Shown here: piece by piece, positions 8,301-47,942 of the stretch
How the letters are laid out: each line of letters starts with the position of its first letter
Position numbering within the stretch: position 1 is the first letter of the stretch
Assembly: GCF_907164915.1 (NCBI RefSeq)
Contig: NC_061867.1
Location: 36,865,338 to 36,929,337 of the forward strand
Reading direction: 5' to 3'
From: Impatiens glandulifera
Lineage: Eukaryota > Streptophyta > Magnoliopsida > Ericales > Balsaminaceae
Length of the DNA: 64,000 nt
Program-made: the position numbers and the translations under genes
Notes under the pieces: model-generated
What the model was told of the DNA's origin: nothing
Database searches by the model: none
The model's input: the letters and a program-made list of their open reading frames with translations, nothing else

Positions 8301-9240
8301 GTTCATCTACCTAGTCATGTATGTAGATGACATGTTGGTAGAAGCAAAGAGCAAAACAGATGTTCAGAAGCTAAAAGATCTTCTAAATGCTGAGTTTGAG
8401 ATGAAAGATCTAGGAGCAGCTCGGAAAATTATAGGAATGGAGATTCTTAGAGATAGAGGCCAGAAGAAACTTTTCTTATCACAAAAAGGTTACATTGAGA
8501 AGGTGCTGTCAAGATTTGGGATGTCATCAGCTAAACCTATAGATACACCTTGTGCTACTAATATCCATCTTACTACATTGTTTGCTCCTCAGGCAGATGA
8601 AGAGAAAAAGTATATGACTCGAGTTCCTTATTCTAGTGCAGTAGGGAGTTTGATGTATGTTATAGTTTGTACAAGACCAGATCTGGCACAGATAGTGAGT
8701 GTTGTGAGAAAATTTATGGTACAACCAAGGAAGGATTATTGGTAAGCTGCGAAGAGGATATTCAGGTATCTACGGGGAACTTTTGATGTTGGTCTCATAT
8801 ATGGAGGTGATACACAATGTGTTATTATTGGGTATTCAGATTCTGATTATGTTGGAGACGTTGATAGTAGAAGATCTATGGCTGGTTATGTATTTACTCT
8901 TGGGAGCTCAGTTGTTAGTTGGAAAGCAACTCTGCAACCTACTGTGACTGTCTACAATTGAAGCAGAGTATATGGCATTAACAGAAGCTGCTAAAGAGGG
9001 AATATGGCTGAAAGGACTAATTAGTGATCTGGGCCTACATCAGGATCAAGCAACTGTCTTATGTGATAGTCTGAGTGCTATATACTTAGCCAAGATCAAG
9101 TTCATCATGAACGGACTAAGCATATTGACGTGTGATATCATTTCCTAAGGACTGAGAAGAGGATAAAGGTGAAAAAGGTAGGAAGTGCTGACAATACTGC
9201 TGATATGTTCACCAAGCCAGTTCGTCATAGCAAGTTGCAA
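5372..9240 (+). pseudogene. Copia gag-pol polyprotein, interrupted
   Basis: The start at 5372 opens a gag of UBN2 type (AAVNIKIDKFRGRNNFSIW). Next come a zinc knuckle near 6046-6090 (CNYCKEKGHWKNECP) and a protease site near 6214 that reads DIGAS instead of the usual DTGAS or DSGAS. The GAG-pre-integrase segment has LWNMRLGHMS. The integrase core shows HSDCWGP, RTDNG and QNGIAERMN, giving D, D and E. Reverse transcriptase follows with DVKTTFLHGELEEEIYM and YVDDMLV (about 8320). RNase H has VGSLMYV, TRPDLA and EAEYMALTEA. The frame is broken near 5700, 6450, 6697, 6930, 7424, 8165 and 8743, and shifts around 8950. These breaks make it a pseudogene. Confidence 0.93.
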
Positions 9241-21956: not shown

Positions 21957-24672
21957 GCTGCCGACGAAGATTGTTTATGTAATCCCTACATTTATAGCAA
22001 ACAGAAAATCTGTTTTCTTAATAAAATATTTATATTTATTGATTCAGAAAAAGTAAATTTCCCGTGATCAAATATCAAATCAGAACAGTTTGCAGTCTTT
22101 TGGTCACATCATGAAAAAGTAATTTCATTAACGAAAAAGTAATAACACTTATATTAAATAAAACAAATAATTCAATATTGTCATTAACATTATATTAAAT
22201 AATAAATTATTTCTACATTAATAAAAATATTTTCATAAATAATTATAAAATTATATTCAATATAATATTATTGCTATATGAAGAAAATTATGTTCAATAT
22301 AAATAAGAATTAAAATATATTTTATTGAAAACATTAAGCGTGAAAACATTTTAATATCCCACAAATTACCAAAATTAACATGAATTTTGAAGTTTCGTGT
22401 ATCATATAAAAAAATTAATTCGAACAGCGAAGAGATCTTAGCTAAAATAACTTCATGTTTATGTTTTAATTTTTTCAAACATCATTATTTACGGGGAGTC
22501 GTTCATAAGCGAAGAAATCTTCGCCACAATTGTTTTCCACCTGTCCCCCGTGTACACCCCCCAACACAACCATGAGAAGCCCGCTTGTCTGTCATGGAAA
22601 GACACTAACCCGTGTATGTGAAGACCAAAATTAAATGTATTTTAAATTTCCGTTTATTAAATATTATAGTAAATTATTAAAAATGACATGCAGCGAACAA
22701 ATATTCGCTCAAATGACTTGGCGGAACAGTAGGCAGTCCTTTGTTTTGTCACATCATTAATAAATTATATTTCATCATTGAAAAAGTAATGTGTTTTTGT
22801 ATAAAACCCTATAAAGAAATCATTTCATATCTATGGATTCAGAAAAAGTATTAAGCCCGTGATCATATGTCAAATCGGAACAGTGTGCAGTCTTTTTGTC
22901 ACATCACATAAATGATTAAATATTATATTTTAATAAAGTATTTATATTATATTAAATATTTCATTATTGATAAAGTATTGTTACAATAGTGTAATTAACA
23001 TTATATTTTATTAAATATTATTTCTATATAGATAAAATTATGTTTGGAAATAAGTATAAATTTTTATTATATATACTATTATTTCTATATGAGCAAAATC
23101 ATATCGAATATAATTTAGATTTAAAATATTATTAATTAAAGAAATTCATATAATTCAATTATAGCGTCAGAACAATTTAATAAAAGACTTGGAAATGACA
23201 TGCAGCGAGTAAATCTTCGTAAACATATTAACATTTTGATTTTTTGAAACATGCTTTCTGTACGGGGTGTGGGTCGGAAGCGAATAAATGTTCGCTTCAT
23301 TATTTTCATGGAAACACACTAACCCTTGTATGTAAATGCCAAAATTAACATTAATTTTTTGTTCACTTTTTTTACACATGAATTCATCTAATTAAAGATG
23401 AAAAGTAGCGAACATATATCCGTGTTCAATGAAAATTGCAATTTATGAGAGGCTTATATGAAGCGAATAAATCTTCGCTTCAATGAATTCTAAGCTGACG
23501 TACATGTGAAACCCTCAACCCTTACATGAGAAGACCTTTTACCCCTGATGTAAGTACACCAACGCATGTATGTGAAGACCAAAATTATTAAGGAATGTTG
23601 GAGGAAAAGACACGCAGCAAATAAATCTTCGCTAAAAACAATTTTTCAATTTTTATCCCTTAAATCACATTTCATTTTTATTTATAATTCATTACTGAAA
23701 TGTTTTTGTACGGTATATCATATCTTAAAGTAATCATTAAATATCGAATCGGACCAGTCTTCAGTATTTTTGACAGGAAACATCATTCATAATTTATATA
23801 TTGTTAATGAAAAAGTAGAAACAAAAATTAGGTGCTGTTTGATCTTGGTGTGTTTTATTATCGAAACAAAAAATTTATAGAAATAAAGGCTCAATCATCC
23901 GCTCATAAATCAAAAAATTACATTTAATATAATTAACATTATATGAAATATTAAATTATTCATACATAAAAAACATTATATTTATTACATCAGTGTAAAA
24001 GTAAAATATATATATTGTTATTTATATTTGAAGAAAAAGAAATTAAATTTAATTCACATCTCAATTATAAATTAAATAAATAAAATCAAGCGCCAAAAAC
24101 TTTTTGACATGTCAATTCAACTGTCACAAAGTCCCAGGCTTTGTGACCACGGCAAGTCATTTCCACCGCTACCATCCAATCAAATGTCAATCCTTTAGAT
24201 TGGATACGATCTCTTAGATTTGCTGATCGAAGATTTGTTCGCTTCTTCCGCATGTAGAAGCAAGTAGTTGGTCAACTTGTGGGAATTTTTTTTCAAATCA
24301 TGTGAAACGAGTAATACATGTCCTAAGCGAAGATATATTCGTACAATGCGGCATTCGGCACGAATACATCCTCGCCTATTCTAGTATGTTTCTTTTCATA
24401 ATGCCGAATTACATGTCACATTCCATGAGCGAAGATCGCTTCTACTCATACGAAGTTCATGAGAAACTCCTTATTCATGTTTGTCAAAACCGATATGGCC
24501 TCATGAAAATACATTCACACTAACAGAGCACTTTACAAAGTAAAATATCTCAAGCCCGACTCCGGCCGTCATACACCCAGGTTATTCTACCATCTGACCT
24601 AGCGCTGTCGTCTCCGGCCTTTCGACTACGAATCCATTTCTCTTCCGGTTAGTATCTTCTACTGCTGCGAAA
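21957..24672. other. MULE noncoding spacer rich in palindromes and CATGTAAACCCC blocks
   Basis: AT-rich spacer with palindrome copies near 22508, 22692, 23203, 23279, 23461, 23617, 24228 and 24328, and the second repeat block near 22543-22630 and 23500-23585. The last 150 bases are the leader of Ulp1 gene B and include pyrimidine-rich CCGGCCTTTCGACTACG. Small frames here (for example 24302-24523) look repeat-derived. Confidence 0.6.
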
Positions 24673-27600
24673 ATGGTAAGAAGTGTTTACGGTTGCATGC
24701 TTGGGTCTATTTCGTTTTCTTATTTTTGTTCGTTCGAATCTAAATGTAACTCTATCATCTCAGAATCAGGATTCCGATATGCAAATAGTTCCATATACTG
24801 AATCCACGACGGAAGTTAACACACTAAGGTAATTACGCTAATGTTAGAAAATGTACAAATTTGCCTATATTGGGATTATGGAAGTAATCGAATTTGCTAA
24901 TGTTAATGTAGTGTTCAACAAAGGAAAAGAAAACCCGAGGCATCAGGCACGCCCACGACACCACTGGATATTCTGGCAAACGCGGCTAATGAAGCACTTA
25001 ATGAGAACCAGGTTAAGAAGAAAAGAAGAAGGACTCGTGACCCTGATGTTGATTTCAAGAGCAGAACCTCTCCATCGTTACTTCATCACCTGATTAACAG
25101 GTTATCCGATGAACAGAAGCAGGCTGTGAGGGACATAGGATTTGGTTCCCTTCTTTCACTTGGCATATCAAAATGCCCACTTCAATTCTCACGGTGCATT
25201 GTGAGTCTATTCAATCCCAGAAGGAGGATCATCGTCCTACACAGTGGAGAGGAGATGCAGATTGATGAAGATGATGTTCAATGTGTATTGAACATACCCA
25301 GAGGGGAATTAGTAGTGGCAGAGTGTTTAGGAAATCACACGGACGACAAGGTGTACAAGGACCATCTCACGGCGTGGAGAAGGAGATGGGGATTCGAGAA
25401 CAGTGGAGGTCCTTCAACCTACCAAATGCCTGACAAAATTCTACAGAACACAGCAGGAGACAGTAACTTCAAGATGGACTTCGTGGTGTTTGTTGTATCC
25501 AGTTTTTTGTGGACATCCCAAAATCCACAGTGCAGGTATACCCAAAGAACCTAGCATTAATTCTGTGATTTCATTTAGAACTTCAATGTCATTTTAAATG
25601 GCTTGAGTCACTCCTTTTTTATGTACAGATTCAAAGTACTGAAATCCCTCCAGGATGTATCTAAAATCAAAGACTACAACTGGTGCAAGTTCACGTTAGA
25701 CGGGCTAGTCGACAATGTTTATAAGTGGAAAGAAAAGAAGACATCCTATTTCCATGGACCATTAACGTTTCTTTTGGTGAGTGTAGAAATCTATTTGCTG
25801 TAGGTTGTACCTTCATAATTTTTCATGAGTTTGAACGTAACATATATTTGTTCATGCTAATGTATCAGTTGTGCTACTTGGACCGTGTGGATGAGTTCAA
25901 GGTAAACAGTCAGATCTCAAGGAGTTTTCCTATTTTAGGATGCTGGGACGAGAAGAAGATGTACGAAAGGGTTGAGTATGAGGCTACACAGGGGGGGTTT
26001 GGACATGGTAGGGTAGTTGCTCGCATAGCCATTCCGAATAAGCAACCAACGATTCAACAAAATGTGGAGCCAAAACCACAACAATCTGGGGATGACAATC
26101 TTACTGAACACGCTCCAATTCCACAAAACCTGGCATCATGTTTGAGGAAGGTTGCGGCCGCTGCAGACGAATTGGCACAAGGGGCTAAATATCTGAATGA
26201 GATGCACTAGATAAACGCCATGGAACTTGTACAGTCTGCATTTGAGCAATTGGCCACTGTACTAAACTCCCATTCAATCCTGAGGGAAGGGTTACAACGG
26301 AGCTTGGACAAAACTAAACATCAGCAGCCAAGAGGAAGTGGCACTTACCCCAACACAGAAACTACCACCCAAGCGAAAGCAGACATCCTTCCTCCCAAAA
26401 TCCATGCCAACACCACTCCAACGACCCCAGCAAATAAGAACACATTAACCCCCACCACCGAAACAAAGACAAAAGCCAACCCCACACCAACGGCCCCATC
26501 CAACAAGAGCATCCTTTCTCCCAACATCCAAAAAAATATCAACGCCAACAACCAAGCCAAATCCAACACCCTTCCTCTAAACACCCAAGACAACACACAA
26601 ACCACCCTCACACCAACGTCCCAATCCCACAAGAACCCCATTCCACTCAAAACAGAAACCAAAACCACAGCCCCAACCCCTCCAATGGCACAAGCCAAAG
26701 CCAACCCCATTCCTCCACTCTAAACCCCAACCCCTCCAATGGCACAAGCCAAAGCCAACCCCATTCCTCCACTCAAAACCCCAACCCCTCCAATGGCACA
26801 AGCCAAAGCCAACCCCATTCCTCCACTCAAAACCCCAACCCCTCCAATGGCACAAGCCAAAGCCAACCCCATTCCTCCACTCAAAACCCCAACCCCTCCA
26901 ATGGCACAAGCCAAACCCAAACCCATTACTCTAACCACAACCCCAACCCCTCCAATGGCACAAGCCAAACCCAAACCCATTACTCTAACCACAACCCCAG
27001 CCCCTCCAATGGCACAAGCCAAACCCAAAGCCAACCCCATTACTCCCAAAACAGAAACTCACACGAACACCAGCACTCCAACAACCCCAGCCTTGCCTCC
27101 TCCCCAAATTATCCCAAAAACAGAAGAAGCCGGACCTTCAAATGCCTTAAATGTCTGCAAAAAAGTCCCCCGGAATTTGAAAACGGATTGGTTAACCAAT
27201 GTCATCAACACCGAAACCAACAACAACTCCCCTTCTTTGGCGATAGTAAAAATTGAACCGGGAGAATGCATCTCCAGTCTACCACCGCCACTTCAAACTG
27301 CCTCTTCTCGTCCACAAATGCAAATTAAAGAATGGCTTAAAGTAGTGGAATTGCCTCCAGCTTTGAAAACCCCATATTTCAATAAAATGTTTAGGGATGT
27401 AAAACAAATGACAAACATTCATAAGATTTTTGTGGGTTTCATATTTGCTACAGGACTTGAGAAAAGGTAATGTTTCCTGGACATACTTACTTATTCATAA
27501 AAAATGTAAGTTGGAACTCATTCTGAAACATGTTTTTCTGGTTTCATGTAGTGAAATGTTATTTAGTGGGGAGAAACTAAGTCTACACGTGACGCGCGGG

Positions 27601-28548
27601 GACATGCTTACAATGGCTGATCAAACCTGGGTAGACAGTATGATTATTGACATTTGGTCATACATGTTGCACGACCTGGGTAGGAAAAATGTAAAACGTC
27701 GTTACAATAAGATTTTCTACACAACCGTGCTCACCGTAAGTTGTACTAGCACTGTTATTTATCAATTATGTTATTCTTGTGAGACTAAAGACTGCTGTAA
27801 ACAGATTTTTCGTGAAGGTGGGATCACTAACCGAGACCAATTCAATGAAAGGTTCTGTCGTGAAGGTCGGACTTTCCAAATTTCGAAAAGGGACCTCATG
27901 GATGTGGACCTCGTAAGTACATCTATCTCTGTGATACCTTATAATAGCATGTAAAACTCAGTTTAAATCTAATTTGTTTTAATTCTATCCACAGCTGTTT
28001 TTCCCAATCATTGATGACAGACATTTCTACTTGGTTTGCTATAACTTCATACAAAGGCAATTTCAAGTAATTGACAACAGGCAAACACCTATGTAATCGC
28101 CCTTCGAAAGAAGATATAAGAATGCACAAATCTTGGTATGACACTGCAATTAAATTTTCAACTAGTTCAATGATTGAATTCTAGTAGCACTAAAATACAT
28201 TACATCATGTGGTTTGTAATGATGTATCAGGATGACTACATTCAACAATATATGAACGACGTAGACCCCGCTCTTGCAGATAAGTATGGCGGTTTGGAAA
28301 AGATATGTTTGAAATTGTCATGGCAGGATTCCAAGAATTACACTGACTGCGGCATTTTTTGCATGAGACACATGGAGACGTATGAAGGTGAGGTGAAGGG
28401 TTGGAAAAGTGGCTTTGGCGTTAAAAAAAATGTACGTGAACAAATAAAGACCTTGAGGATGGGATATTGTTGGCGTGTCATTGGCTCGGAGCTCAACAAA
28501 GCCAGGAGCAAGGTCTACAAGTCCTGCATGAAATGGATAAATCAATGA
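24673..28548 (+). pseudogene. Ulp1-like cysteine protease gene B (three in-frame stops, otherwise intact)
   Basis: Paralogue of gene A with the same exon plan and no frameshift. Exons: 24673-24675, 24764-24828, 24924-25535, 25629-25776, 25869-27466, 27552-27735, 27805-27912, 27995-28135 and 28231-28548. All borders are GT-AG and the phases agree, giving about 1058 codons. The start codon is the last codon of exon 1. Order of parts: basic KKKRRRTRDP; the IGFGSLLSLGISKCP and DEDDVQCVLNIPRGE domain; a proline- and threonine-rich low-complexity middle with an 18-residue repeat; then the catalytic domain GEKLSLHVTRGDM, RHFYLVCYN (His), FQVIDNR (Asp), LSWQDSKNYTDCGIF (Gln, Cys). Stops: TAG 26208-26210, TAA 26721-26723 and TAA 28094-28096, the last just before the Cys-bearing exon. 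The final intron seen in gene A is absent. Likely role: SUMO-like isopeptidase of the element, now inactive. Confidence 0.87.
26660..27050 (+). repeat. 54-bp minisatellite coding an 18-residue proline-rich repeat
   Basis: About seven head-to-tail units within exon 5 of Ulp1 gene B, each encoding a variant of TPTPPMAQAKANPIPPLK. The first four units are nearly identical in DNA; the later three read PKPITLT at the end. The unit length is a multiple of three, so copy changes keep the frame. One unit has TAA where the others have AAA. The opposite strand is open through the array, but that is an effect of the repeat. Confidence 0.9.
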
Positions 28549-29418
28549 ATTTGGAAATGTATACAGATTGTGTAATTAAATTTTACAAATAATTTTAGTT
28601 GACATTAGTATGCCTACAGATTGGGTAATTAAACTATTCATATAATTTTAACTCACATTTGTACAATATTGAATATGTTGTGTAATTTAAATTTTCAAAA
28701 AATTTTAATTCACATTTTGACAATGGTGAATATGTATATATGCAGATTGTTTTTTAATGAAATTTGATTTTCAAATACTTGTTCATTTATGTATTAAATG
28801 AATAATTGAAGTGAAAGAAACATGAGGCGCATAAATATTCGCTTCAAACACTTTTTGTTTATTTAAAAAATTATGCTAAAATTTATATGTGAAGCCCACA
28901 CAACCCATGAGAAACCGAATTACTTGTCATGTCATTGCACTTACTCTAACAGGTAAATACCAAATTCCACAAAAATCTCAAATACTACTTTTTATTGAAG
29001 CGAATAAATATTCGCCTCAAATTATTGTTCATGTAAAACCACCAACCCAACCATGAGAACCCGGATTAATTGTCCTGTCATTACACTTACCCTGACATGT
29101 GAATACCAAATAGTACAAAAATATCAATTTCAAGCAAAGAAATATGAAGAGAATAAATATTCGCCTCATATACTTGTTTTCATTTAAGCGAATACATATT
29201 CGCTTCAGTTTTAGGTTTTAAATTCTGAAATATTAATTAAAAGGATACTTAATAGGAGTCGACTGGGGGCGAATAAATATTCGATTGATTTAGGTATTTG
29301 GATTTTTAGAAATTAATTAGTGTTTTCATTCATTTGTTATTACATAAAACATCACATGCATACATTCTACCTTCTTCTCAGTTTCAAATCAAATATACAT
29401 ACAAATACATTTCGGATT
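28549..29418. other. Central MULE spacer between converging genes
   Basis: Holds the sharpest palindromes of the element (near 28827, 28998, 29148, 29186 and 29265) and two copies of the second block (28880-28950 and 29028-29110). It is flanked by the 3' ends of Ulp1 gene B and of the transposase, so it is also the shared termination region. Confidence 0.65.
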
Positions 29419-32050
29419 TCACATGAAACTGGAATTCGATAGTTGAGATGACAAAAGAACAGTGAACGGAGTATTGGCGTCCATGCTGAAACTTTTGTCC
29501 CATTGTTGAGGAGTTGAGAACTGAGGAGTGGTCGTTGGCATTGCATTTGATGGCTGGAAAGGTATATCAAATTTATTTAAAAGTATGTTATTAAATGAAT
29601 ATTAATAACCCAATTATTAGTAAAGAAGGTAAGTCAGCAAATTCATACCGGAATCTGTGATTCGCTAGTTATTCTTGTTGATTTTCTTTTTCTTGAGTTC
29701 TTCTCCAGTCCACCTTTCCTTCTCTTACCAGACTTTGTTGGCTTCTTAGTTTTGATTCCTTTCGCTTGAACAGGGGCACCCGCGGCAGAACATGATACAC
29801 CGGTTGGTGGAGTTTGCATATTTATACTCTCCTGTAATTTTTTATCCACAAACGTACACTAGCTAAGCATAATTTCTCTGACATGCTTATAAGTGTCATC
29901 TCTTTCGGCTGCCTTGGTAAATAAATGCATGGACAAGACACACAAATCTCTGTATCTTATGTTATGAAGCTCACTCGGATCAACATTACTACTGTCCACG
30001 ATGGGATCAGTTCCAAATATTCCATCTTTGGCTGTTCTTGTCCACCTCTTCAATATCAACGCCGGAGGAATCTTCAACACGTCAATCGTTGTGAAAATCT
30101 TTAGGATGTGAGCACACAAAATCCCTCCAAATTCAAATTTACAGCAGCTACACTCGATATTCTTATCATCATTCTTATGAACTGTAACTGTATGAGAGCA
30201 TCTCCTAGTGTGGGGTGTTACCTTATATTTTCTGTGTGTGTCGACATCCTCTAACATTTCTACACCACAATCATGCGACATAAACCATTGTTGTTCAAAG
30301 CACTTAAATACCTCTGGGGTGTAAACTTTGCAGGCATCCTTTAAGATCAAAACTGGATAGTTCAGACTTGGTTGGCTGGTAATTGATTTGAAATCAGCCT
30401 TCAACACATCATATCTTCTTTCATCGATTAGTCTTTCAAAGTGTTTGAAAAATTCTAAAAACTTGTGTTTGTAGGAGCAGTACCTTTTCAACAAACTGTT
30501 CATACTCTCACTTCTTTGTGTTGTCGTCATATCAGCACAAAACATTTGTCGTCCATAGACTAATGCCCACTTTCGCCTAATGCTAAACATGCGTTTCAAC
30601 CAGTCGTTGTTTTCAAGCCCGTAGTTTGTCAACATTTGATTCCAAGCTTCAACAAACTCTATCTCTTCTTCAAAATCATATATACAAGAAGAAAAATCCT
30701 TAGAAAATTTTCTGTAATTATGGAACACGGAGCTAAGATGTATGGCTGCATTTTGAAATATGTGCCAAATACAGAGACGATGATTTGTTTCGGGCCATGT
30801 AGACGCCAAGGCCTTAGCCATGGCCGCGTCTTGATCTGTAAGAATGGTTTTTGGTTTTTTCCCACGCATAGCTTTGGTGAAAGCCTCAAACAACCAATCA
30901 AAAGTCATCGCAGTTTCATCGTATAATAGAGCTGCTCCAAAAATAATTGATTGTTTGTGATGATTGACACCTACAAAAAGCGCAACTGGACGACCTTCAT
31001 TATTCTTCTTGTATGTGGTGTCAAAACTGACAACGTCTCCGAAGTATGAATAATCGGACCGCATGTTGGAATCACACCAAAAAATATTCGTTGTCAAATC
31101 GTCCGCATCAAGTTGAAAAGCATTATAAAAACCAGGATCATTGGATTGTTTTTTCTGCAAATACTCTAATACACCCCCTGTTTCCCCAAAATTACACTCT
31201 CTGGTTCTTTTCGTGCGCAGGTAATTTTTGTAATCCTCAGGAAGAAAACCTAGATTCTCCCTTCCACCGATTTGTTTAGACATTAAAGCATGTGATGACT
31301 TAGGAGGAATTCCCACGTTAGTGGCCATCTCGATATGTAAGCCTGCAACTGCAGAAATATTCCTATGGCATCTATACATGTGAGTTTTCTTTGGACTTGC
31401 AAGAGGATGACTATGATCACTAATAAAATTTACCACTTGGAACTTTCCATTGTCTGACCTCTTTATCCTCAATTTCGCTTCACAACCGAACCTCGTCACA
31501 GAACGGCTACGTCTCACATAGACATCACGTTTGTCTATTCCCCGTTCACCCTGTGCACTACAACAAAAAACTCTATCCAGTATTTTACCATCGTTGTCTA
31601 CATGTTTTGAACTGCGCCTTATACCAAATCCTATTAGTTTAGCGTATGCTAAGTAGAATACGCCTTCTTCTTCACTCTCAAATTCCCTACCTAAATGTGG
31701 AATTAAGTTGGCTTCGATATCCTCCAAAGGTTGGCTGTTTCCATCGAAATTTAATTGACGACGACAAGTAGCAGATTCGCTGTTCAATTGGAACACGTGG
31801 AAAATAAAGGTTCAACTAACCAGAACTTGTAAATTATTGAAAAATGAAGACAATATAAGCGAAGAGAGCTTCACTTCAACATTAATAACATTGTAATATT
31901 AGGCGAATATAGTTTCGCTTTATAAGATATTATCAAAAAAGCTATTAGTGAAGAGATCTCCGCTTACATATGCACGGAAAAAATTAGAGAAGTTAAACCA
32001 TGTTACCTTAAATCATTAATATCATTCTCGTTCATATCATTCTCGCTCAT
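29419..32050 (-). pseudogene. FAR1/MudrA-type MULE transposase with one in-frame stop
   Basis: Three exons on the minus strand: 32007-32050, 29649-31779 and 29419-29553, with agreeing phases. The start codon is 32048-32050 (MSENDMNEND). Parts in order: FAR1 DNA-binding zinc finger (FCCSAQGERG, RFGCEAKL, ISDHSHPL); MULE DDE core with VVSFDTTYKKN (D), ILTDQDAAMA (D) and the RLCIWHIF motif; then a SWIM zinc finger (IECSCCKFEFGGILCAHIL). After about 654 residues there is TAG at 29859-29861. The same frame stays open for 70 more codons with a basic KTKKPTKSGKRRKGG segment and splices to a Q/S/T-rich end (SMDANTPFTVLLSSQL), as in FAR1-related proteins. The main domains precede the stop, so a protein ending there might still work. 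It would bind the element ends and catalyse cut-and-paste transposition. Confidence 0.88.
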
Positions 32051-32789
32051 ATGTGTTCATTCCTGATAATAAACCAGAACAGAACATTTCATGTCGAGTA
32101 TTCAAAAAACATAAAAAAGGTTGGGACGAAAAGTAAAGAAGGTATAGATGACATTCAAAAACATACCATTTTTTAATTTAGGAAGATGGATTGATATTAT
32201 AATGAAGTCTCCGGCGAAGGAGAGGTCGATGGTAGACAATGGAGTATCACTCCGGCGAAGAAATGGTCGTACAGGTGAGAGAGAGAACAGTACAAACTTT
32301 GTCTAACTTAGCAGCATGGCTTGCTCCATGCATCATTTAATGAAAAGGTGGCAGGTGTTAGGTGGCGGTGAGGTGACTTGTTAAAAAAATTATTTCATTT
32401 TAAAAATTAAATGACTAAAATTATTATGAATTAATATTAATAAATCAATCAATCAATCAGTAAGCGAAGATTTCTTCACATTATTATTTTGACAATTATT
32501 TTAGAAAGATTATTTTGACAGTTGTTTTAAAACATATTAATTATTTATCACATTAGGGGCGATTAACTTACATAGATTGCTATGTATTAATAAATGAATA
32601 AAAATTTATACTTCAAGTTATACATTATTTCTTCAAGTTTCAAGATTTAGTTTAATATAAGGCTGGTGTTTTAAAAAAACACAATTCGAAGAACAAAAAA
32701 GATCAATCTGAAATCAAATATGACATTAACAAATTCAAGAATGCAAAATATTCAAATATTCAGTAACAAATTCAACCAACACATGTCTA
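32051..32789. other. Transposase promoter side and 3' side of the BRCT gene
   Basis: AT-rich MULE spacer. The part 32200-32330 is GC-richer, with CTCCGGCGAAG repeated at about 32208 and 32251, and probably is the transposase leader or promoter. A degenerate palindrome lies near 32462. The rest shows no gene. Confidence 0.5.
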
Positions 32790-33962
32790 TTACAACAACA
32801 AAGGCTGCAAATCACAAGCAGCAATGGATTCTAGCAAGCTTGTGTGAGGAACACCAAACACATCCAAATATGTCTTCAAAGGATTCTCTGCCTCAAATAC
32901 CCAAACAAGTTCATTAACATCGTGCCGAGACTTGTCGTATACAACTATAGTTTTGTCGTCCTCGGGCTCGACAAATGGATTCTCCATTTCTTTAGTTGTA
33001 CCTCCTCCAGCAATTACAAACCCCATAAGATCCAGTTTGTAAGCCGGGATGAATTCCCCTGCAAATATGAAGGTGTAACTGTCGAACAGTTTCAGCAGCT
33101 GAAAGAAAATACAAAACATTTTTAGTAATCATGGAGAATTGAATATCATATGGAGGAGGAGTAGGAATAAGACAAAACTTACATTGTTCAAATACCGCAT
33201 TCTGCCAGCTCTTGGACCGCCCACAGTCCCATGATTATCTCGCTGCACCTCGTATGGTTCCTCGTCCACGTAACAGTTAAATCTGATTGATGATTTTATC
33301 CCTGTACAAAAGCAATAGGTGTTTTTAGTTTAATATATGTGAAAATGAATATTGAGTTAAAAGTAAAGGGTTACGAATAACAGAGTCTCACAATCAATGG
33401 TAAGGACCCAACTCCCGTTCAATATTCCCTTCAATACTTTGATAGTGCGACCGCATCCACCATTAGAATCGGTGGATGCTATGACGTGGGTCACATCGTC
33501 TCGCCACCTCATTGTCACCGTGGCACCACATGTGTTAGCATATTGTTGCATCAAGTGCTGTTTAAGAACAATCATAAATATTTCAGATAAACAGGATGAA
33601 AACTTAAACAATATGGAAAAAAGGGAGAAATGTCAAGAAGAGTACTATCTCTTCACTTGTTAATTGATTTGGGCATAAAATGCAGTCTTTGCCAAAGTTT
33701 TGGACGGATGCTGTGGCGGTTGCCTGCACGTGCATGAAAAAAAAAGGTCTTTGTTAGTATGTACTAGGGTTTCATGGAAATAATATCCCAAAACCTAACA
33801 CTAGGTAAGTTTTCCTAAATACGATGGATTTACATTGAAGGTGACATTTTGAGAGTAGGGTTTCCTAAAGATTAACGAGACAACAACATCACATAACAGA
33901 ATCTAGTTTAGTAGTTCCATAATCCTAAATATGAAAAGTTACTATTCAGGAATACGTACCAT
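32790..33962 (-). CDS. Tandem-BRCT protein of BRCA1/BARD1 type carried by the MULE
   Basis: Five coding exons on the minus strand: 33960-33962 (start codon only), 33646-33723, 33392-33557, 33183-33301 and 32790-33098. All borders are GT-AG, phases agree, and the 675 coding bases give 224 residues without a stop. First BRCT (about residues 5-95): CGATVTMRWRDDVTHVIAST, RTIKVLKGILNGSWVLTIDW. Linker: DEEPYEV, then GPRAGRMRYL. Second BRCT: KLFDSYTFIFAGEFIPAYK, VIAGGGTTKEM, and the end SLLESIAACDLQP. This linker and end are typical of plant BRCA1 and BARD1 C-termini. In those proteins the BRCT pair binds phosphopeptides and works in homologous recombination; RING and ankyrin or PHD parts are absent here. 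The T-x-K of the phosphate pocket is present, but the usual serine near residue 20 seems replaced (CPNQLT). It keeps introns, so it was taken up as DNA. Function in the element is unknown. Confidence 0.85.
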
Positions 33963-34089
33963 TGTGGAGTCGTGAAGATGTTGATTCTGGTTTGGTCGAC
34001 GGGGAGCCGGTTGCGAATCGCCGTGAAAGGAGGCAGGAAGAGAGAGAGATGAATCGGGCGGAAATGATTATAAAATAATCATATTAGGG

Positions 34090-35065
34090 GGTATATATAT
34101 TCATGTAACCGGGGCGAACATGTCTTCTTTCGAAAAGCGACTATTCATTCCATGTCACATGACACAGGGACTAGGGGCGAATAAGTGTTCTCTCGAGAAG
34201 CGACTATTCAATCCATTTTACATGGAACATGGTCTAGGCGAACAAATATTCTCTACCAGCCAAAAAATTTAAATAAAAAAATAAAAAATATGAATGAATT
34301 AATTGAAGCGAATATTATATAGCTGCATGTCATTTTAAATTAATTGAATTAACATTTATTAATAAACGAAAAAAAAATAGCCAGTAATTGAGGCGAAGAT
34401 TTGTTCGGTTGCTGCATGTCATCTTCAATTAATTGAATTAATATTTAATAAATGGAAATATAAAATCCCTGTCATTTTGGTCTTCACATAGACGGGTAAG
34501 TGTCTTTCCATGGCAGGCAGGCGGTCTTCTCATGGGTGGGTTGGGGGGTTTACATGATGTTTTCATTAAAATAAATTTAAGCAAATACATCTTCGCTCAT
34601 GAGGGTCTCCAGGCCAAAAAAATTAAATAAAAAAAACAAAAAAATTTAGAGCCCAGTAATTGAAGCGAATATTATATCGCTGCATGTGATTTCCAATAAA
34701 TTAAATTAATATTTAATAAACGGAAATATAAAATACATGTCAATTTGGTCTTTACATAGATGGGTAATTGTATTTTCATGGAAGGCAAGCGGTCTTCTCA
34801 TGGGTGGGTATGGGGGGTTTACATGAGGTTTTTATTAAAATTAATTGAAGCAGATATATCTTCGCTCCTGAGGGTCTCCAGGCAAAAATAATTAAATAAC
34901 AAAATTAAATAAAATTAATAAAAAAAAATATGAATTAATTGAATTAATATTTAATAAACGGAAATATAATTATTAAAATTAATTGAAGCAAATATATCTT
35001 CGCTCCTGAGGGTCTCCAAGCCAAAAAAATGAAATAAAAAATTAAATGAAATTCCTAAAAAAAAA
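34090..35065 (-). repeat. Right subterminal repeats of the MULE
   Basis: Inverted counterparts of the units at 14000-14900, including GGGTTGGGGGGTTTACATGA, GGTCTTCTCATGGG, TTAATAAACGGAAATATAAA and several palindromes (34300, 34392, 34660, 34850, 34990, 35085). Units are duplicated and partly deleted, so the array is not regular. Confidence 0.82.
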
Positions 35066-35554
35066 ATGAATGAATTAATTGAAGCGAATATTATATCGCT
35101 GCATTCGATTTTCAATAATTAAATTAATATTTAATAAACGGAAATATAAAATCCCTGTAATTTTGGTCTTTACATAGACGGGTAAGTGTATTTTCATGAA
35201 AGACAAGCGGTCTTCTCATGGCTGGGTATGGGGGGTTTACATGAGGGTCAGGGCAACGGGCATGGAAATCTTCGCTCCCATCGCATCTCACCCTTCCTTC
35301 TAACACGGTGCCCAGAGCGAAGATATCTTATTTGGGTATCATATGATTATTATATTATTTCCTAGCGTTAACAGGCGCTGCCGTTAACGGCGTCTTGTGT
35401 GAACCCGGGACGAAACCCGGATTCCGGATTCCCCCTCCCTCCGTCTCCTCCCCAGATTGATTTATTATTAAAATAATAATGCTGCAATCTGATTGGTCCG
35501 CCACAGGGGAACACGGCAATCGGTAGCAGAAGATTTGGATTGCTTGGGGATAAG
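35066..35554 (-). repeat. Right terminal inverted repeat of the MULE
   Basis: Reverse complement of the left TIR with scattered substitutions, many of them C/T or G/A. The outer border is near ATAAG at 35550-35554. Open frames on this strand (35124-35586) also exist in the left TIR and are not conserved in reading, so they are not genes. Confidence 0.92.
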
Positions 35555-36639: not shown

Positions 36640-37486
36640 ACATCATGTTTCTGCTATTAACGACGCATAGGACCGAGAAAACGCACCCTAGAGCGAGCGA
36701 ACACTGCATCCGACCGAGAAAAATGCATCAAAGAGTGCGCGCGGATGTCGGTTGATCAAGAAGCCTTGCACATGCAAAGAGCAATACCTTCCCAGCGCTT
36801 CTAATGGTTCCTACTACTCATCTAGCGAGCGACCAAGGAAATTAGCCAGATCTCGCATATGGCTAGGTTTCCCGACATATCCAATCATTGATCGCTTCTT
36901 CTCGTGTGCTATTGTTGCTAATTTTCACCCGATAGCTAATAGTCTCCACCCGACCGAGAGCAAAGTTCCATGACTCATTTTCCTATCACTTCCGATCGAT
37001 GAAAGAATCCACCCGATGACTGTTGTTGCTGGTTTCCATCTAACCAAGCAATGGAAATACCATACTAGATTTTACCAGGCATTAGACGGTTAGATCATCC
37101 TTAAGTTTATATTTTTCTACACCATGTAGTTAGCCTCTTAAGGCTACTTTGTGAACCCGATGGAGACCCGCTTCTCGCGTAAGACTACCTAGAGGCTGCT
37201 GCACGTTAGAACTAAGGGTCTACACTCGATCGAGCAGCTGGAGGCGCTAATTTCTATACCCGACTGAGGGGATGAATGTGATAAACTTGCACCTAATAAG
37301 AACCTACTACACACCCACGATCGAGAGCCTTCAACCACCGCTGCTGAAAGCCGACTGACGTCCGTTGCACCCTAGGACCTAGAGGAAGAGTTGTTGCACT
37401 CTACTTGATTAAGAAGACTAGATGTTGACTGAAGACCGAATCTTGCTGCACACGAAGACCGAGGAACGAAACTTGTTGCACTCAAG
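36640..37486 (+). repeat. GACCGAG-rich degenerate repeat, left part
   Basis: Much less AT-rich than its surroundings, with loosely repeated words such as CCGACCGAG, GACCGAGGAACG and TTGCTGCAC, spaced about 27-30 bp near the right end. The same repeat continues at 38292-38460 and 42386-42490, so it once was one block, later split by a LINE and a copia element. No reading frame is supported. Confidence 0.55.
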
Positions 37487-38291
37487 GACCAAGGAGAGCT
37501 GAGGACAATGGGAAGCTGGTATTGAAGAAAATATGGGAGGTAATCCGGGAAAAAGCGCAGAAAGTAGAATGGGCTCCTCTTGTATGGTCAACGAAGATTA
37601 TCCCTCGACACCAGTTCATCCTATGGCTCGCCTTCTGGGAAAGACTCAACACACGTGATCGTATCAGTAAGTATATGAGCATCCCGGACGCGAGCTGTCT
37701 TCTATGCATAGGAAATAAAGAAACCATAGATCACCTATTCGGGAGCTGTTGTATTGCTTCGGAGCTTTGGGACAGATTCTATAAAAGCCTGGAGCTGATC
37801 AGTTTCCCGAGCGAATGGAATGAAATCAAAGAAGCGGCACTACTCAAAGCCAAGGGAAATAGATTTGCAACAAGCGTGTTCAAGTGCGGCTTTGGAGCAG
37901 TGGTGTATAACATTTGGCAAGAACGGAATGCAAGGGTATATGACAGAACCCACAGGAGCATTGACGAGTTATGGAAAGATATTGTATCGGATTGCAGCGC
38001 CCTCGCGGGAACGTGGAGAGGAATTCCAAGCACGGAGCAGAACTGGAATATCTGCAGGAACTGGAATTTACCGTTTTTTAAACTCACTAGAATTGAAAGC
38101 ATTGTAAACAGATAATTCATTTACGTTTTTAGCTTTTATTCAGAATGTTACGACTTCAAAATCATTCTAGGCCTGTCTAGAATGATCTCTTAAATTCGTG
38201 GTATTTTTTTTCCCGTTTTTGAGAATTTTTAATGAAATGACGCTAAGTCGTTTTCCCAAAAAAAAAAAAAAAAAAAAAAGACCAAGGAGAG
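37487..38291 (+). mobile_element. 5'-truncated L1-type LINE with poly(A) and 12-bp target duplication
   Basis: Body 37499-38279. Target duplication GACCAAGGAGAG at 37487-37498 and 38280-38291. It holds only the 3' end of ORF2, a 3' UTR with AATGAAATGACGCTAAGTCG and a tail of about 22 A. The same 3' UTR phrase, in variant form, ends the LINEs at 52375 and 59470, so the three belong to related L1 lineages. Confidence 0.9.
37522..38115 (+). pseudogene. C-terminal end of LINE ORF2 (zf-RVT domain), truncated
   Basis: Open frame of 197 residues without the reverse transcriptase core. It has the reverse-transcriptase zinc-binding domain of plant L1 elements: PRHQFILWLAFWERLNTRDR, then the Cys/His cluster CLLCIGNKETIDHLFGSC, then the tail VVYNIWQERNARVY. 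The frame is open to its own stop, so the copy is fairly young, but it cannot act on its own because endonuclease and polymerase domains were lost at insertion. Confidence 0.85.
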
Positions 38292-38460
38292 ACGCATGTT
38301 GTAGCCGTGGACCGGGGAGCGACGCCCGCTATAGTCGAGGACCGAGGAGCGATGCTCGCTACACCCAAGGATTGAGGATCAATGATCACTGTACCGAGGA
38401 CCGATGATTGATGCTCGTTATACTCTAGGACCGATGACCAACGTTCGCTGCACCCGAGTA
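38292..38460 (+). repeat. GACCGAG-rich repeat, middle part
   Basis: Five or six units of about 29 bp, such as GACCGAGGAGCGATGCTCGC and GACCGATGATTGATGCTCGT. This is the clearest part of the repeat and is cut at 38465 by copia element 2. Confidence 0.7.
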
Positions 38461-38465
38461 CCAAG

Positions 38466-38794
38466 TGTTGGGAAAAACTCTGACAGAAACACAAAAGAAG
38501 AAAACAAACTGAAAGAACACTAACAGAGTTTGATAACGGAGTTCGGCCAAAATGTTGCCTACGTCTCCGAGTACTAAGGCTATCAATTAATAAGGAAGAA
38601 GAGATACAAATTTGGGTGCACTAAACCAAAGAGAGGAGAGTTTCTTTTATACACTAAAAAACTTCCCCAACTCCGATCATCTTCCGATGTGGGATTTATA
38701 CTAATTGTGAATATAGTTTCTTTTATATACTAAGAAAACTTCTTTCACTCCCATCATCTTCCGATGTGGGAATCTAATTGTGCCAAAAACAACA
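38466..38794 (-). repeat. 3' LTR of copia element 2
   Basis: 329 bp. On the minus strand it includes TATAAAAG, the likely TATA box. Two copies of CATCTTCCGATGTGGGA lie near its inner end, a small internal repeat also present in the other LTR. Confidence 0.92.
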
Positions 38795-38886
38795 AATCTC
38801 CACCTTGGCACAATATTCAAATACTAATCTTCAATATTAAAAAAATAAACCTTCAGTGCTTCCAATTGGCGCTCTTCAGCGCCGAC

Positions 38887-41807
38887 TCAAACGCAGAAGA
38901 TGTTTACCAAATCTAAACAATTAAGTTTGGTTTTCCCCATGTCTTTCATCTCGAACTCTTTACCCAATTGAGCCTTCAATTTGTCAACTTCATATTGGCT
39001 CTTTGATGCTATCAACATATCATCAACGTACAAGAGTAGATAGATGTAAGACTCATCTTGCAACTTGCGCAAATACACACATAAACTGAATCTGCTTCTT
39101 GTGTACTTGTGCTCCATCATAAACTTGTCAAATTGCTTGTACCATTGTCTCGACGATTGCTTCAACCTGTACAATGATCTATTCAACTTGCAAACCCAAT
39201 TTTCTTTATCAGCAACATTGAATCTATCTGGTTGATAAATGTAGATTTCCTCGTTTAAATGACCGTGTATATCTGCGGTCTTCACATCTGGTTGAGCTAG
39301 CTCCAAATTCATCTGCGCTACTAAGGACAACAAAATTCCAATGGAAGAGTGTTTAACAATATGAGAAAGTACTTCATTATAGTCACCTCCTTCCTTCTGA
39401 GCGTAGTTTTTAGCTACCAATTTTGCGTTGTAGCGAACATCAAATTTTTCGGAAAATCCTTTTTTCTTAGCAAAGATCCATTTACCACCAATAACCTTCT
39501 TCCCTTTTCGTAGATGCGTCAACTTGCATGTCTCATTCTTCTGAATAGATTGCATCTCATCTTCCATAACACCTCTCCTTTTTCCATTTTCAGTATTTCG
39601 ACTGACATCTGGAAAAGTGGATGGAACATCATCTACGACTAAAAGTGCATAGGCCACCATGTCAACAAACCGACCTGGTTTTTGAATAACTCGTCTTGGC
39701 CTATTCAAAGCAATTGATTCACTTTGTTCTGAAGGTTCTTGGGTCAGAACCTCTTCCACATTTAACTCTTTGTCTGTCGTCGGAGAGTCACTTCTAGTTG
39801 GGCTTATCTTTATCTGCTCAAACTTCACCTGTTGCGGAGTACAATCAATCTTGTCTAGTGTTACCTTATTCAACATTGAATAATCATCAAAAGTAACATC
39901 TCTTCTGATAATGGTTTTCTTTGCATCCAAACATCAGAGGCGATATTCATTAACTCCCGTATTAAATCCCATAAAAAGAGCCTTCTTTCCTTGTGGATCC
40001 AACTTTGATTCAAATACATGATAATATGCAGTAGAACCAAAAATATGCAAAGAATCATAATCAGTTGCAGGTTTTCCAGACCATACCTCTAATGGAGTCT
40101 TACCACCAAGTTCAGATGATGGTAGGCGATTTACCAAATGTTGAGCGTATGACACAACTTCTGCCCAAAATTTCCTATCTATCCCAACATTAGACAACAT
40201 ACATCGAACTTTCTCCACCAATGTCCTGTTCATACGTTCCGATACTCCATTCTGCTGTGGTGTTTGTCTGACTGTGAAGTGTCGAAGTATGCCACACTCT
40301 TGGCATAACTTCTGTAAATGGATCATTCTTGTATTCTCCACCATTATCAGTCCGGAGAATTTTGATCTTTCTTCCTGTCTCGTCTTCAACTTGAGTTTTC
40401 CATTTAAGAAAAATCCCAAACACTTCACCTTTATTCTTCATAGTAAACACCCATACTCTTCTGGAAAAATCATCAATAAAAGTAACAAAATAATGTCTAC
40501 CTCCAAGAGAAGGAGTCTTGGCAGGTCCCAAGACATCTGAGTGCACATAATCCAAAATACCCTTGGTGTTATGGATAGCAGTGCCAAATTTTAATCGCCT
40601 TTGTTTTTCCAGAATACAATGTTCACAAAAATCTAACTTACAAACTTTTGTACCTTTCAACAATCCTTGCTTGACAAAAGTTTGCATAAATTTCTGACCA
40701 GCATGCCCCAATCGCATATGCCATAGCTTTGTTGCCTCTAACTCCTTACTGCTCCCGAAAGTTGATACACATGATGTCCCATTAACTGTACTACCTTGAT
40801 AGTAATACAAATTATTACTCTTCCTGATAGCTTCAACATCACTAGCGCTCCAGATATTACCCTAAGAACTCCATTTTCCAATTTCACATGTAGGCCTTTT
40901 GACTCCATGGCCCCCAAAGAAATAAGATTCTTTTTCATATTCGGTATGTACCGAACATCTCTAATAATTCTGGTGGATCTGTCATCATTCCTCAGCTTTA
41001 TTGAACCTATCCCCTTTATTTTACATGTATTAGTATCTCCCATGTAACAACTCCACCATCTAGCTCCTTAAAGTCAAAGAACCACTTTCGAACTGGTGTC
41101 ATATGATAAGTGCAGACTGAGTCCAATATCCACGCATCAGGATGTGATGTTGTGTGTGACATCGATAAAGAGTATTCTGAATCTGCATCACCTTTGTTTT
41201 CTGCAACATTCGCATCTTCAGAATCTTTCTTTTTCTTCTTCAACTTTGGGCAGTTAATCTTCCAATGTCCTTTCTCACGACAGAAAGCACATTCATCTTT
41301 GGCAACTCTACTTTCAGATCTTCTTCCTTTCCCTTTTGATTTGCTCTGCTGACGGCCCCTGACCATCAATGCTTCATCTGCTGCACCTACTTTGTTTTTC
41401 CTTTTATCCTGCTTTCTCAATTCATGACTATATAAAGCAGAACTTATAGCATCAAGAGAAATATTTCCCTTCCCATGAAGTAACGTTGTTTCTAAGTGTT
41501 CAAATTCATCAGGAAGGGACGATAGTAACATCTACGCAAAATCTTCATCCTCAAACCTAACGTCAAGGTTTAACAGATCTGCTACTAATTCATTAAACTT
41601 AGTTATATGCTCATTCATAGTAGTACCTGATTGGTAATCAAACCAGAACAATCGCTTCTTTATAAGGAGCTTATTCTGACCACTCTTCTTCAGAAATTTA
41701 TCCTCCAATGCTTGCCACAGTTTCTGTGCAGAAGTTTCATTCTTCACAGCATACTTCTGCTCTCTCGACAGGAATGATTGAATTGTGCCGCACGCCAACC
41801 GATTCAT
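38887..41807 (-). pseudogene. Copia gag-pol of element 2, interrupted and lacking RNase H
   Basis: Read from 41807 downward. Gag (SREQKYAVKNETSAQKLWQA, RLFWFDYQSG) is followed after a TAG near 41532 by LLSSLPDEFEHLETTLLHG, a zinc knuckle CAFCREKGHWKINCP and a protease site that reads DSVCTYHM, where DSGAS/DSACT is usual. The GAG-pre-integrase segment has LWHMRLGHAG; the integrase has HSDVLGP, RTDNGGEY and, after a shift near 40270, QNGVSERMN. The reverse transcriptase ORF 38887-39930 has WIFAKKKG, DVKTADIHGHLNEEIY and YVDDMLIAS. It then runs from EFEMKDMGKTK into a few unrelated residues and stops, which marks the deletion of the polymerase end and RNase H. The element could not retrotranspose without help. 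Confidence 0.92.
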
Positions 41808-42032
41808 GATACTCCATTCTTTTTATTCTATACCATCTGGCTTTCCGACCTCAATAGCAACATCTAGACCCTGCTGAAAAAGACAATACAGAACATCACC
41901 TTGCTACATGCCGAAATGCCCAGTTCCATTAAAGATTTCCACTGCAAACTTCAAATTCGACATCGGTGTCCTCGTCCAAGATGACGAAGGAGTTGATGCC
42001 CCTTTTGAAGACTCCACCATGCCAGGGACGAA

Positions 42033-42050
42033 CCTTCGGCTCTGATACCA
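42033..42050 (-). other. Primer binding site of copia element 2
   Basis: Minus strand TGGTATCAGAGCCGAAGG, next to the right-hand LTR; complementary to initiator tRNA-Met. Confidence 0.88.
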
Positions 42051-42052
42051 CT

Positions 42053-42380
42053 TGTTGGGAAAAACCCTGACAGAAACACAAAAGAAGAAAACAAACTGAA
42101 AGAACACTAACAGAGTTTGATAACGGAGTTCGGCCAAAATGTTGCCTACGTCTCCGAGCACTAAGGCTATCAATTAATAAGGAAGAAGAGATACAAATTT
42201 GGGTGCACTAAACCAAAGAGGGGAGAGTTTCTTTTATACACTAAGAAACTTCCCCAACTCCCATCATCTTCCGATGTGGGATTTATACTAATTGTGAATA
42301 TAATTTCTTTTATATATTAAGAAACTTCTTTCACTCCCATCGTCTTCCGATGTGGGATTCTAATTGTGCCAAAAACAACA
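42053..42380 (-). repeat. 5' LTR of copia element 2
   Basis: 328 bp, nearly identical to 38466-38794. The minus strand has TGTATAAAAG near 42231-42240 as likely TATA box. Confidence 0.92.
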
Positions 42381-45947: not shown

Positions 45948-47942
45948 AGACTATCCAAAGTAGGGTATCAAATTTTTTCATTTAATACCCTGCCACGTCA
46001 GCTTAACACCTATTTTAACACCCACTTTTTAGTATATCCTACAACAGAGTGTTATTAAATGTATCAAAATTACTTTTTCACTTTCTCTCACTTCCACATC
46101 ATTTATACATAATTTCATTTTTTTTAACCACAAACAATATTATTCATCACTTGGTAAATCAAACATACAAATATATTTAAAACGAAGAAGAAAACAAACA
46201 CTCTAAACATTGGTAATTTGTTAAGTAGTGTTTTTAAAACTCTAATCGAGAGTTGTTCCAAATTTATTCCAAATGTGCATGACAAGATCTTTCTTCAATT
46301 GAATATGTTGTGCTTTGTCACGTAGATCGACCCTAGTATGAATATTTGATTCAGATCGGCCTTGAACATGCACTTGAAATTGAGGTAGCACTTCTCTTTG
46401 GACATTAACTGAGGAACTAGACCCAGAATTATTCGAACGTTCGAAGTCGATATTTTCCCAATTTCGTGAATACGAATCTCGTTCATCCTCCACAATCATA
46501 TTATGTAAAATTATGCATGCCCTCATTATTTTATCTAGGCCATCAATATTCCACATCCTAGCTGGTTGGTGAATAATAGCAAACCGTGCTTGAAGTACCC
46601 CGAATGCACGTTCTACATCCTTCATGCACGCTTCTTGTTGTTTTGCAAACAACTGCGCTTTGTATCCTTGGGGCATTTGAATTGATTATACAAAGATGGG
46701 CAATTTAGGATAGATTCCATCAGCAAGATAATAGGCAAGATTGTATTGTCGACCATTCACAATGAAGTTTACAGCAGGAGCTTCGCCATACTCAATGTCG
46801 TCAAAAATTGGTGACCTGTCTAATACATTAATATCGTTCAATGTTCCGGGCAGGCCAAAAAAAGCATTCCATATCCACAAATCATAAGATGTCACTACCT
46901 CGAGGATAATTGTTGTTGTGCCCTTGTGTCCATTAGTAATCTTCCCTTGCCAAGCCTTAGGACAATTCTTCCACTCCCAGTGCATGCAATCAATACTTTC
47001 AATCATTCCAGGAAAACCGCGCTCTTGTCCAACTTGGAGTAACCTCTGCAAGTCTTCCCCATTTGGTCGTCTGAAGTATTCATCTTGAAACAAGGCAATT
47101 ATTGTTTCGCAAAAAATACGGGTGCACTCAAGTGTAGTGATTTCTCCAATTTTCACATATTCATCACAGGCATCCCCGACTACTCCATATGCAAGCATGC
47201 GTATGGCAACTGTACACTTCTGGATCGGTGTCAATCTAAGCTTTCCTGCATTATTCCGCCTTTGGGTGAAGTAATGGTTGTAATTTGTTATGGCTTCTAC
47301 ATTTCGAAGAAACAATTGCCTTCTCATACGAACTCTACGTCTAAATTGCATTTCAGTATAAGTGCATGGCTCATCGAAATAGTCGGCCATGAGCCTCTTA
47401 TGGGCAGTTCCATGGTCCTTGTTTATAGAATTTCTTTTACGTGATCGATTGTTTCGCCTTTGAAGCTCTTCGAGAAGTTCTTTTTGCCTTTTGAGTAAAG
47501 ATTCCTCCAACTCTCATTGTTGTTGAATCTCTTCGAGATTGAAAGGGTTTGGGGGAATATCCATATGATGATATGAAGAAAGGTGATACAAACAAGGATG
47601 ATAATATGGTGGAAAATTTCAGAAATTTTTGGTGTCCAAATGACACAAACCAAGTCTCTATTTATAGATCTCGAAAAATAAAAAATAATGATATTTATAT
47701 ATATATATATATATATTTTGATCAATTATTATGCAAAAGTGTATTTGAAAAAGAAAACAAAAACAAAAAAGTAACCACCGGCGCTGCCACTTGGCACGCT
47801 GTGATTGGGCCACATCAAACTTGGTCCCGTATCAAAATTTGATACCCATATTTTAACACTTAATTTTGATACTATGCCGCACCATTTGATATTATTTTAA
47901 CACCCATTTGATACCTTATTTGACACCCTACTGTGGATAGTA
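45948..47942 (-). mobile_element. PIF/Harbinger element of about 2 kb
   Basis: Lies inside the foldback element. Ends share an inverted ACTATCCAAAGTAGGGTATC (left) and ACTATCCACAGTAGGGTGTC (right, minus strand). A TAA trinucleotide on both sides (45945-45947 and 47943-47945) fits the 3-bp duplication of the family, but the outermost two bases differ, so borders are approximate. Only a transposase is present; the companion MYB-like protein of autonomous elements is absent. Confidence 0.75.
46242..47564 (-). pseudogene. PIF/Harbinger DDE transposase with two in-frame stops
   Basis: HARBI1/ALP1-like nuclease, 441 codons from the ATG at 47562-47564. One frame runs throughout, broken only by TGA (47514-47516, after CAA CAA CAA) and TAA (46686-46688). 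N-terminal coiled, basic part: LEESLLKRQKELLEEL and NRSRKRN. DDE core: IESIDCMHWEWKNCP (D), LPGTLNDINVLDRSP (D), and after the TAA, KDVERAFGVLQARFAI (E). The last part carries LRDKAQHIQLKKDLVMHIW, typical of the plant family end. Both stops could come from single C-to-T changes (CGA to TGA, CAA to TAA), though AAA to TAA is possible for the second. Would have cut the element at its ends. Confidence 0.88.

Follow-up and report, generated by a model that had tools for sequence, protein, structure and literature searches.

Host gene fragments are known from several kinds of MULEs. Pack-MULEs hold transduplicated pieces of host genes within MULE ends, as the element described here does. In another group a captured Ulp1 domain (KIU) is strongly conserved in eudicots, and its function is unknown (PMC13317346, excerpt). 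These Ulp1-carrying elements, KAONASHI/KIU of the VANDAL group, are like the present case in that a host domain was captured and has been kept across element lineages, and the captured domain is likewise one of several element genes (PMC13317346, excerpt). Unlike KIU, the part captured here is the BRCT pair of BARD1 with host introns, and it is common to two MULE families (A and B) with unlike transposases; these BARD1-carrying MULEs are known here from the one genome examined. The capture resembles the Ulp1/KIU captures but is a new case.

The two carriers resemble described MULE groups. In the excerpted tables of a MULE survey, the Jittery plant sub-group has FAR1 and SWIM domains, a target site duplication (TSD) of 8 bp, one open reading frame, and terminal inverted repeats (TIRs) of 39 to 292 bp (PMC6446971). 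Family A resembles this sub-group in the tabulated features of FAR1 N-terminus, SWIM domain, and 8-bp TSD (the last read by eye in one copy, L027), but it has more genes and longer ends, with terminal repeats of ~560 to 580 bases in the same copy. Family B resembles MuDR-type MULEs by description, with DBD_Tnp_Mut and SWIM domains, TIRs of ~650 bases in L014, L019, and L021, and TSDs of 8, 8, and 9 bp in these three copies, read by eye. In these copies, as in L027, inverted termini and a duplication in the 8- to 11-bp range of MULEs are present. The main text of the survey, as excerpted, names neither BRCT nor BRCA1 nor BARD1 (PMC6446971), and among the matches listed from the open-access literature, in excerpted form, no MULE was reported to contain BRCT or BARD1. 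One paper that names BRCT and Mutator-like elements together was set aside as a precedent, because the BRCT there stands in a reference title on MEI1.

On the host side, the closest described gene is plant BARD1 (ROW1), which has the same BRCT region and intron positions and is sister to the element gene in the tree. BARD1 has a RING domain, an EPHD, the Ser of phosphoserine binding, and the BRCT2 Trp; the element gene is without these.

The BRCT gene and its element

The window, that is, the whole stretch of 64,000 nucleotides analyzed, is located on contig C6 of a 654-Mb genome. A sequence-only reading had found in it a captured BRCT gene of five exons with GT-AG borders and 224 residues, and this gene structure was confirmed: 224 codons are open after splicing on the minus strand, from 33962 to 32790 (Table 1). 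The layout of exon 1 also occurs in the family B BRCT gene, and exon 2 encodes LCPNQL in place of the FCGSAL of host BARD1. The protein has a BRCT profile match (PF00533; E value of 6e-11; score of 42.9 bits, where 21.3 is the cut-off) over residues 14 to 88. Its closest PDB matches are to the BARD1 BRCT (1.7e-13), the best BRCA1 BRCT match being 6.7e-12. Of the two BRCT repeats that had been read, the first is supported by Pfam. The second is not matched separately by Pfam in the window copy and rests on alignment, in which it is 51% identical to host BARD1 exon 5. A structure model of exon 5 alone was weak (pLDDT of 68), and a fold search with this model gave no matches at an E value of ≤0.001.

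Table 1. Features of the BRCT gene and the surrounding family A element in the window
Feature	Position	Strand	Remarks
BRCT gene exon 1	33960..33962	-	coding part is ATG only, GT directly after
BRCT gene exon 2	33646..33723	-	78 nt; start of BRCT 1
BRCT gene exon 3	33392..33557	-	166 nt; core of BRCT 1; length and phase as in host BARD1
BRCT gene exon 4	33183..33301	-	119 nt; BRCT linker with EEPYEV and GPRAGRM; length and phase as in host BARD1
BRCT gene exon 5	32790..33098	-	stop codon included; BRCT 2, alpha-2 region uncertain
Transposase	29862..31811	-	FAR1, MULE, and SWIM domains; 650 open codons
Convergent second element gene	24848..28545	+	several frames; proline-rich repeats mid-gene
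Subterminal tandem repeats, right terminal region	34262..35252		inverted partners at 22540-22722
Right element end	35543		similarity to copies L026 and L027 ends there
Left inverted repeat, remnant	22540..22722		inverted partner of right-end repeats

The BRCT gene lies about 1 kb upstream of the family A transposase on the same strand; the MULE domain of the latter matches PF10551 at 1.6e-29. The claim that the BRCT gene is the sole element gene without a stop or shift was roughly right: the transposase frame is open for 650 codons, but the stop that ends it is missing in 16 of 18 other comparable family A copies, and the plus-strand gene runs over several frames. The several frames of the plus-strand gene may reflect introns or damage. 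We took this gene to be Ulp1-like from its catalytic motif DCGIF alone, and a Pfam scan of its pieces left the Ulp1 identity unsupported. A tandem repeat with a 54-base period (window positions 26612 to 27097) encodes its proline-rich segment. The true left end of the element was looked for within the window and was not found.

The window also holds remains of other mobile elements. Within 38459 to 42324, direct repeats that are LTR-like and 97% alike (38459 to 38737 and 42046 to 42324) flank a set of frames; these frames and those at 5832 to 8742 are presumably copia-like, judging from the look of their translations. A Plant_tran transposase frame (PF04827, 5e-64), which we take to be of PIF/Harbinger type, lies on the minus strand at 46689 to 47513. 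Frames with zf-RVT and DUF4283 at 37429 to 38112 and 58069 to 58713 are probably remnants of non-LTR retrotransposons. The frames at 19604 to 20717, which lie outside the BRCT element, match DUF7745 at a score short of the curated threshold and may be what is left of a plant mobile domain.

Copies in two MULE families and relation to host BARD1

Genome-wide, a 28-base pattern from exon 5 with up to 3 mismatches marks 369 family A BRCT places, and a pattern of the same kind from the transposase marks 484 family A transposase places; reversed patterns used as controls gave 0 places. The gene is therefore present at hundreds of places by pattern count, rather than absent from other copies of the MULE, the case that the sequence-only reading had named as telling against it. 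Exon 5 matches of the BRCT protein to the genome were 90 to 99% identical among the matches listed (150 of 1,574 candidates scored). On contig C1, 48 of the 75 exact family A transposase places are preceded within 4 kb by an exact BRCT place of the same orientation, and 48 of the 64 exact BRCT places there are accompanied by a transposase (median of 1,267 bases between the patterns); searches on the wrong strand and on the wrong side gave 0 pairs each. The other 27 transposase places, which have no exact BRCT pattern upstream, represent pattern decay or true absence. Five family A transposase places (L070 to L074) were chosen for being absent from the listed BRCT matches and were fetched; four of them (L070, L072, L073, and L074) contain the BRCT gene, which was not found in the fetched interval of L071.

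A second carrier emerged among 20 places picked from the list of PF00533 matches, 18 of which belong to family B and 2 (L026 and L027) to family A. The best two PF00533 matches in the genome, L001 and L002, were dropped as sources because they resemble other host BRCT genes; from the appearance of their translations we assume these to be TopBP1/MEI1-like and CTD-phosphatase-like. The family B BRCT gene has 293 pattern places (0 with the reversed pattern), a profile match at 2.3e-15 (PF00533), the same five-exon layout, and the same relative place in the element, and it aligns with the window protein at 48 to 71% per exon (single-exon alignments). The family B transposase, read in L020, is of MuDR type, with DBD_Tnp_Mut, MULE (PF10551, 5.5e-23), and SWIM domains; it shares 18.7 to 21.4% identity with that of family A over partial alignments, and the domain types differ. 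Convergent to it, at 7824 to 8924 of L020, is a 367-codon Ulp1 frame (Peptidase_C48, 1.4e-32), and homology between this gene and the convergent gene of family A was not significant (best E value of 0.031). In a DNA comparison of window positions 22001 to 35543 with L020, taken from the left end as far as base 9901 and so without the family B right end, the sole match was the BRCT gene (window positions 33576 to 32799, 67%). The transposase is present in the fetched stretch of 20 of the 22 family A copies (partial in L058 and L027) and 16 of the 18 family B copies (partial in L021). Since most fetched copies of both families encode it, these are not families of the nonautonomous Pack-MULE type. 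What is chiefly new here is that the BRCT gene occurs in two MULE families whose transposases differ in type.

The source of the gene was assessed in a maximum-likelihood tree. Its 45 rows comprised 20 BARD1 and 10 BRCA1 proteins, two short BRCT proteins from plants, and 13 element copies; BARD1 and BRCA1 labels follow source names or our reading of the database match list. The BRCTs of families A and B group together (100/99), with Impatiens BARD1 as the sister of this clade (100/99), and BRCA1 forms a separate clade. The proposed branching within plant BRCA1/BARD1 was thus borne out, with the position inside BARD1, and BRCA1 was rejected as the source. Impatiens glandulifera BARD1 is also the closest long-protein database relative (50% identity, 3.1e-55). 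When 5.8 billion collected proteins were searched, the 2, 86, and 10 matches returned came from plants and animals; many of them are named BARD1 or BRCA1, and others are unnamed short BRCT proteins.

The host BARD1 exons lie on contig C5. Exons 3 and 4 measure 166 and 119 nt in family A, family B, and host BARD1 alike, and in the host a GT-AG intron follows each of these exons; the equal lengths and the host introns in place indicate that genomic DNA, introns included, was captured. Pfam identifies RING and EPHD (PF13771) in the host BARD1 protein (P0003), whereas the 224-residue element frame has BRCT only, with no RING or EPHD, and is therefore a BARD1-derived fragment and not a BARD1.

Capture of the gene by a MULE, as originally read, was upheld, but the suggestion that it was recently gained was rejected. 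Synonymous divergence (pairwise NG86) was 0.60 and 0.73 for two A-B pairs, with dN/dS values of 0.49 and 0.45, and reached 0.89 between family A and host BARD1 and 0.88 between family B and host BARD1 (one pair each); dN/dS ranged from 0.42 to 0.49 over the A-B and element-host pairs. The dS of ~0.9 to host BARD1 instead indicates an old capture. Together with the single A and B clade as sister to host BARD1 and the shared introns, it makes one old event probable, in which the piece of BARD1 was taken up a single time and then passed between MULE families; for the tree, a single origin from the BARD1 of the balsam lineage suffices.

A different history, in which a BRCT-only duplicate of BARD1 was maintained by selection in the host and entered families A and B in separate captures, seems rather unlikely to us. 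It would accommodate the finding that the compared A and B elements have nothing but the BRCT gene in common, and the free-standing layout and CPNQL change common to both. A query with the BARD1 N terminus finds one full locus, on C5, which is a weak argument against such a duplicate as the query is blind to BRCT-only genes; selection among family A copies, described below, calls for an element-level cause.

Residues of phosphopeptide binding

In human BARD1, S575 and K619 have been implicated in phosphoserine binding (PMC12805184, excerpt). In our alignment the S575 equivalent is Asn in all 27 family A copies and in 17 of 18 family B copies; the remaining copy, L028, has Cys, and its 5' part is foreign sequence. 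The K619 equivalent is retained in 26 of 27 family A copies (Ile in L070) and in all 18 of family B. The BRCT2 signature Trp, near-invariant in relatives, is Ser in 27 of 27 family A copies, and each of the 18 family B copies has Lys or Arg there. Judged from these residues, canonical phosphopeptide binding by the element protein is doubtful. The sequence-only reading had conjectured competition with host BRCA1/BARD1 for partners at breaks, which for phosphorylated partners is unsupported: the Ser is replaced and the BRCT2 Trp is gone in 45 of 45 copies, so that simple competition is open to doubt and models other than a plain decoy are to be preferred.

The fragment could nevertheless interfere in a dominant way, blocking host BARD1/BRCA1 on chromatin or in repair and, for example, freeing the element from silencing. 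In favor of this, the fragment is without the RING and EPHD (PF13771) of host BARD1; in Arabidopsis, BARD1/ROW1 acts as a repressor bound to chromatin (PMC9659954, excerpt), and MULEs already make use of anti-silencing proteins (PMC13317346, excerpt). We nonetheless consider interference improbable, as the phosphoserine-binding Ser is replaced in both families. Moreover, TE reactivation in atxr5 atxr6 Arabidopsis was not suppressed when BRCA1 was lost (PMC10657422, excerpt), so that a link between BRCA1 and TE silencing is not established there.

Selection among copies and possible role

The main family A sample comprised 23 copies (the window, L026, L027, and L029 to L048, the last group chosen from the listed BRCT similarity matches). 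The BRCT frame is intact in 20 of them (ATG, no stop, no frameshift), and splice sites are also complete in 13. Under a codon model, dN/dS was 0.365 (23 rows; 2dlnL of 32.3 against dN/dS = 1) and 0.474 (2dlnL of 9.9) for exons outside the copy choice. The four copies found by their transposase gave 0.341 (2dlnL of 19.6), with three of the four intact, all splice sites included, and all 27 copies together gave 0.386 (2dlnL of 39.3). The value for the family A transposase was 0.492 (2dlnL of 43.0, 20 rows). Purifying selection thus acts on the BRCT protein of family A, and its strength equals or exceeds that found for the transposase. Values of dN/dS were also computed with broken copies kept, and one version omitted family A copies L027 and L048, family B copies L022, L025, and L028, and a duplicate reference row.

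Family B gave a different picture. Its BRCT frame is intact in 11 of 18 copies, 10 with complete splice sites as well, and dN/dS was 1.08 for the BRCT gene (2dlnL of 0.15, 18 copies) and 0.81 for the transposase (2dlnL of 3.15, 15 rows). A dN/dS of ~1 indicates that the B copies are mostly in decay after insertion; for family B alone, recent selection on the BRCT gene is without support and the copies look neutral. The suggestion that the gene may be under selection therefore holds for family A, where dN/dS is well below 1 among copies, and not for family B. Among changes common to several family B copies (L009 to L025 and L028), the ratio of nonsynonymous to synonymous changes per site was 1.19; relaxed or changing selection between family B sublineages is possible.

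In simulations of neutral change, 0.4% of frames were still free of stops at 0.3 substitutions per site and 47% at 0.03. Neutral survival since the split of A and B is therefore unlikely, and intact frames in young copies prove little. Distances between copies in the BRCT gene and in the transposase were correlated in family A (r of 0.83, 0 of 2,000 permutations, 20 copies, exons only) and less clearly in family B (r of 0.46, 58 of 2,000, 15 copies, exons only); without L028, dropped for its foreign 5' part, the family B value was 0.72 (1 of 2,000). A Mantel test on whole genes with flanks gave an r of 0.85 (0 of 2,000) for A and 0.24 (296 of 2,000) for B.

It is possible that the BARD1 fragment is a transduplicated passenger, amplified by hitchhiking with the MULE and without function, which is the commonest fate of captured genes (PMC13317346, excerpt). 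The neutral appearance of family B would fit this, as would the one family A transposase place in five (L071) without the gene in the fetched interval. We give this explanation a minor chance overall and disfavor it for family A, where dN/dS is 0.34 to 0.39 with strong likelihood ratios, including copies not chosen by BRCT, and remains low on exons outside the copy choice; in addition, most frames there are intact, and frames are still open over an A-B dS of 0.60 to 0.73. That copies merely look conserved for having been picked by BRCT similarity, as the first family A sample was, is very improbable given the values for exons not used in picking and for the four transposase-picked copies outside the listed matches, small as that sample is.

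We therefore consider it somewhat probable that the BRCT part of BARD1 was captured, passed between MULE families, and was retained because its protein helps the element. Capture into one MULE would have been a single event, after which the gene would have passed to the other family, or both families would have received it from one intermediate. In family A, retention would follow from a benefit of the protein to the element, and the tail kept intact by selection in this family suggests that the transposons use it. Excision of Mu and MULEs produces double-strand breaks (PMC11511760, excerpt), and in atxr5 atxr6 Arabidopsis the recruitment of RAD51 to unstable loci needs BRCA1 (PMC10657422, excerpt). 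As a conjecture, the BRCT protein could be a nuclear adaptor that, where the element excises or inserts, engages the machinery of the host for break repair or chromatin; we infer such a role rather than observe it. It might, for example, favor template-copying repair of the excision gap and so lead to higher copy number, and its adaptor surface would probably be other than the canonical phosphoserine pocket. More tentatively, and with less than even confidence, we suggest by analogy that the BARD1-derived BRCT may be an accessory module that moves from one MULE family to another, even between different types of transposase, and makes transposition more successful by serving as a repair or chromatin adaptor. 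In this it may be likened to the anti-silencing proteins, which serve VANDAL elements to the same end.

Decay is the usual end of captured gene fragments. Here, one transposon family has kept a reader domain of DNA repair under selection. With its hundreds of natural copies, the case lends itself to testing directly whether DNA transposons use stolen parts to recruit the repair machinery of the host.
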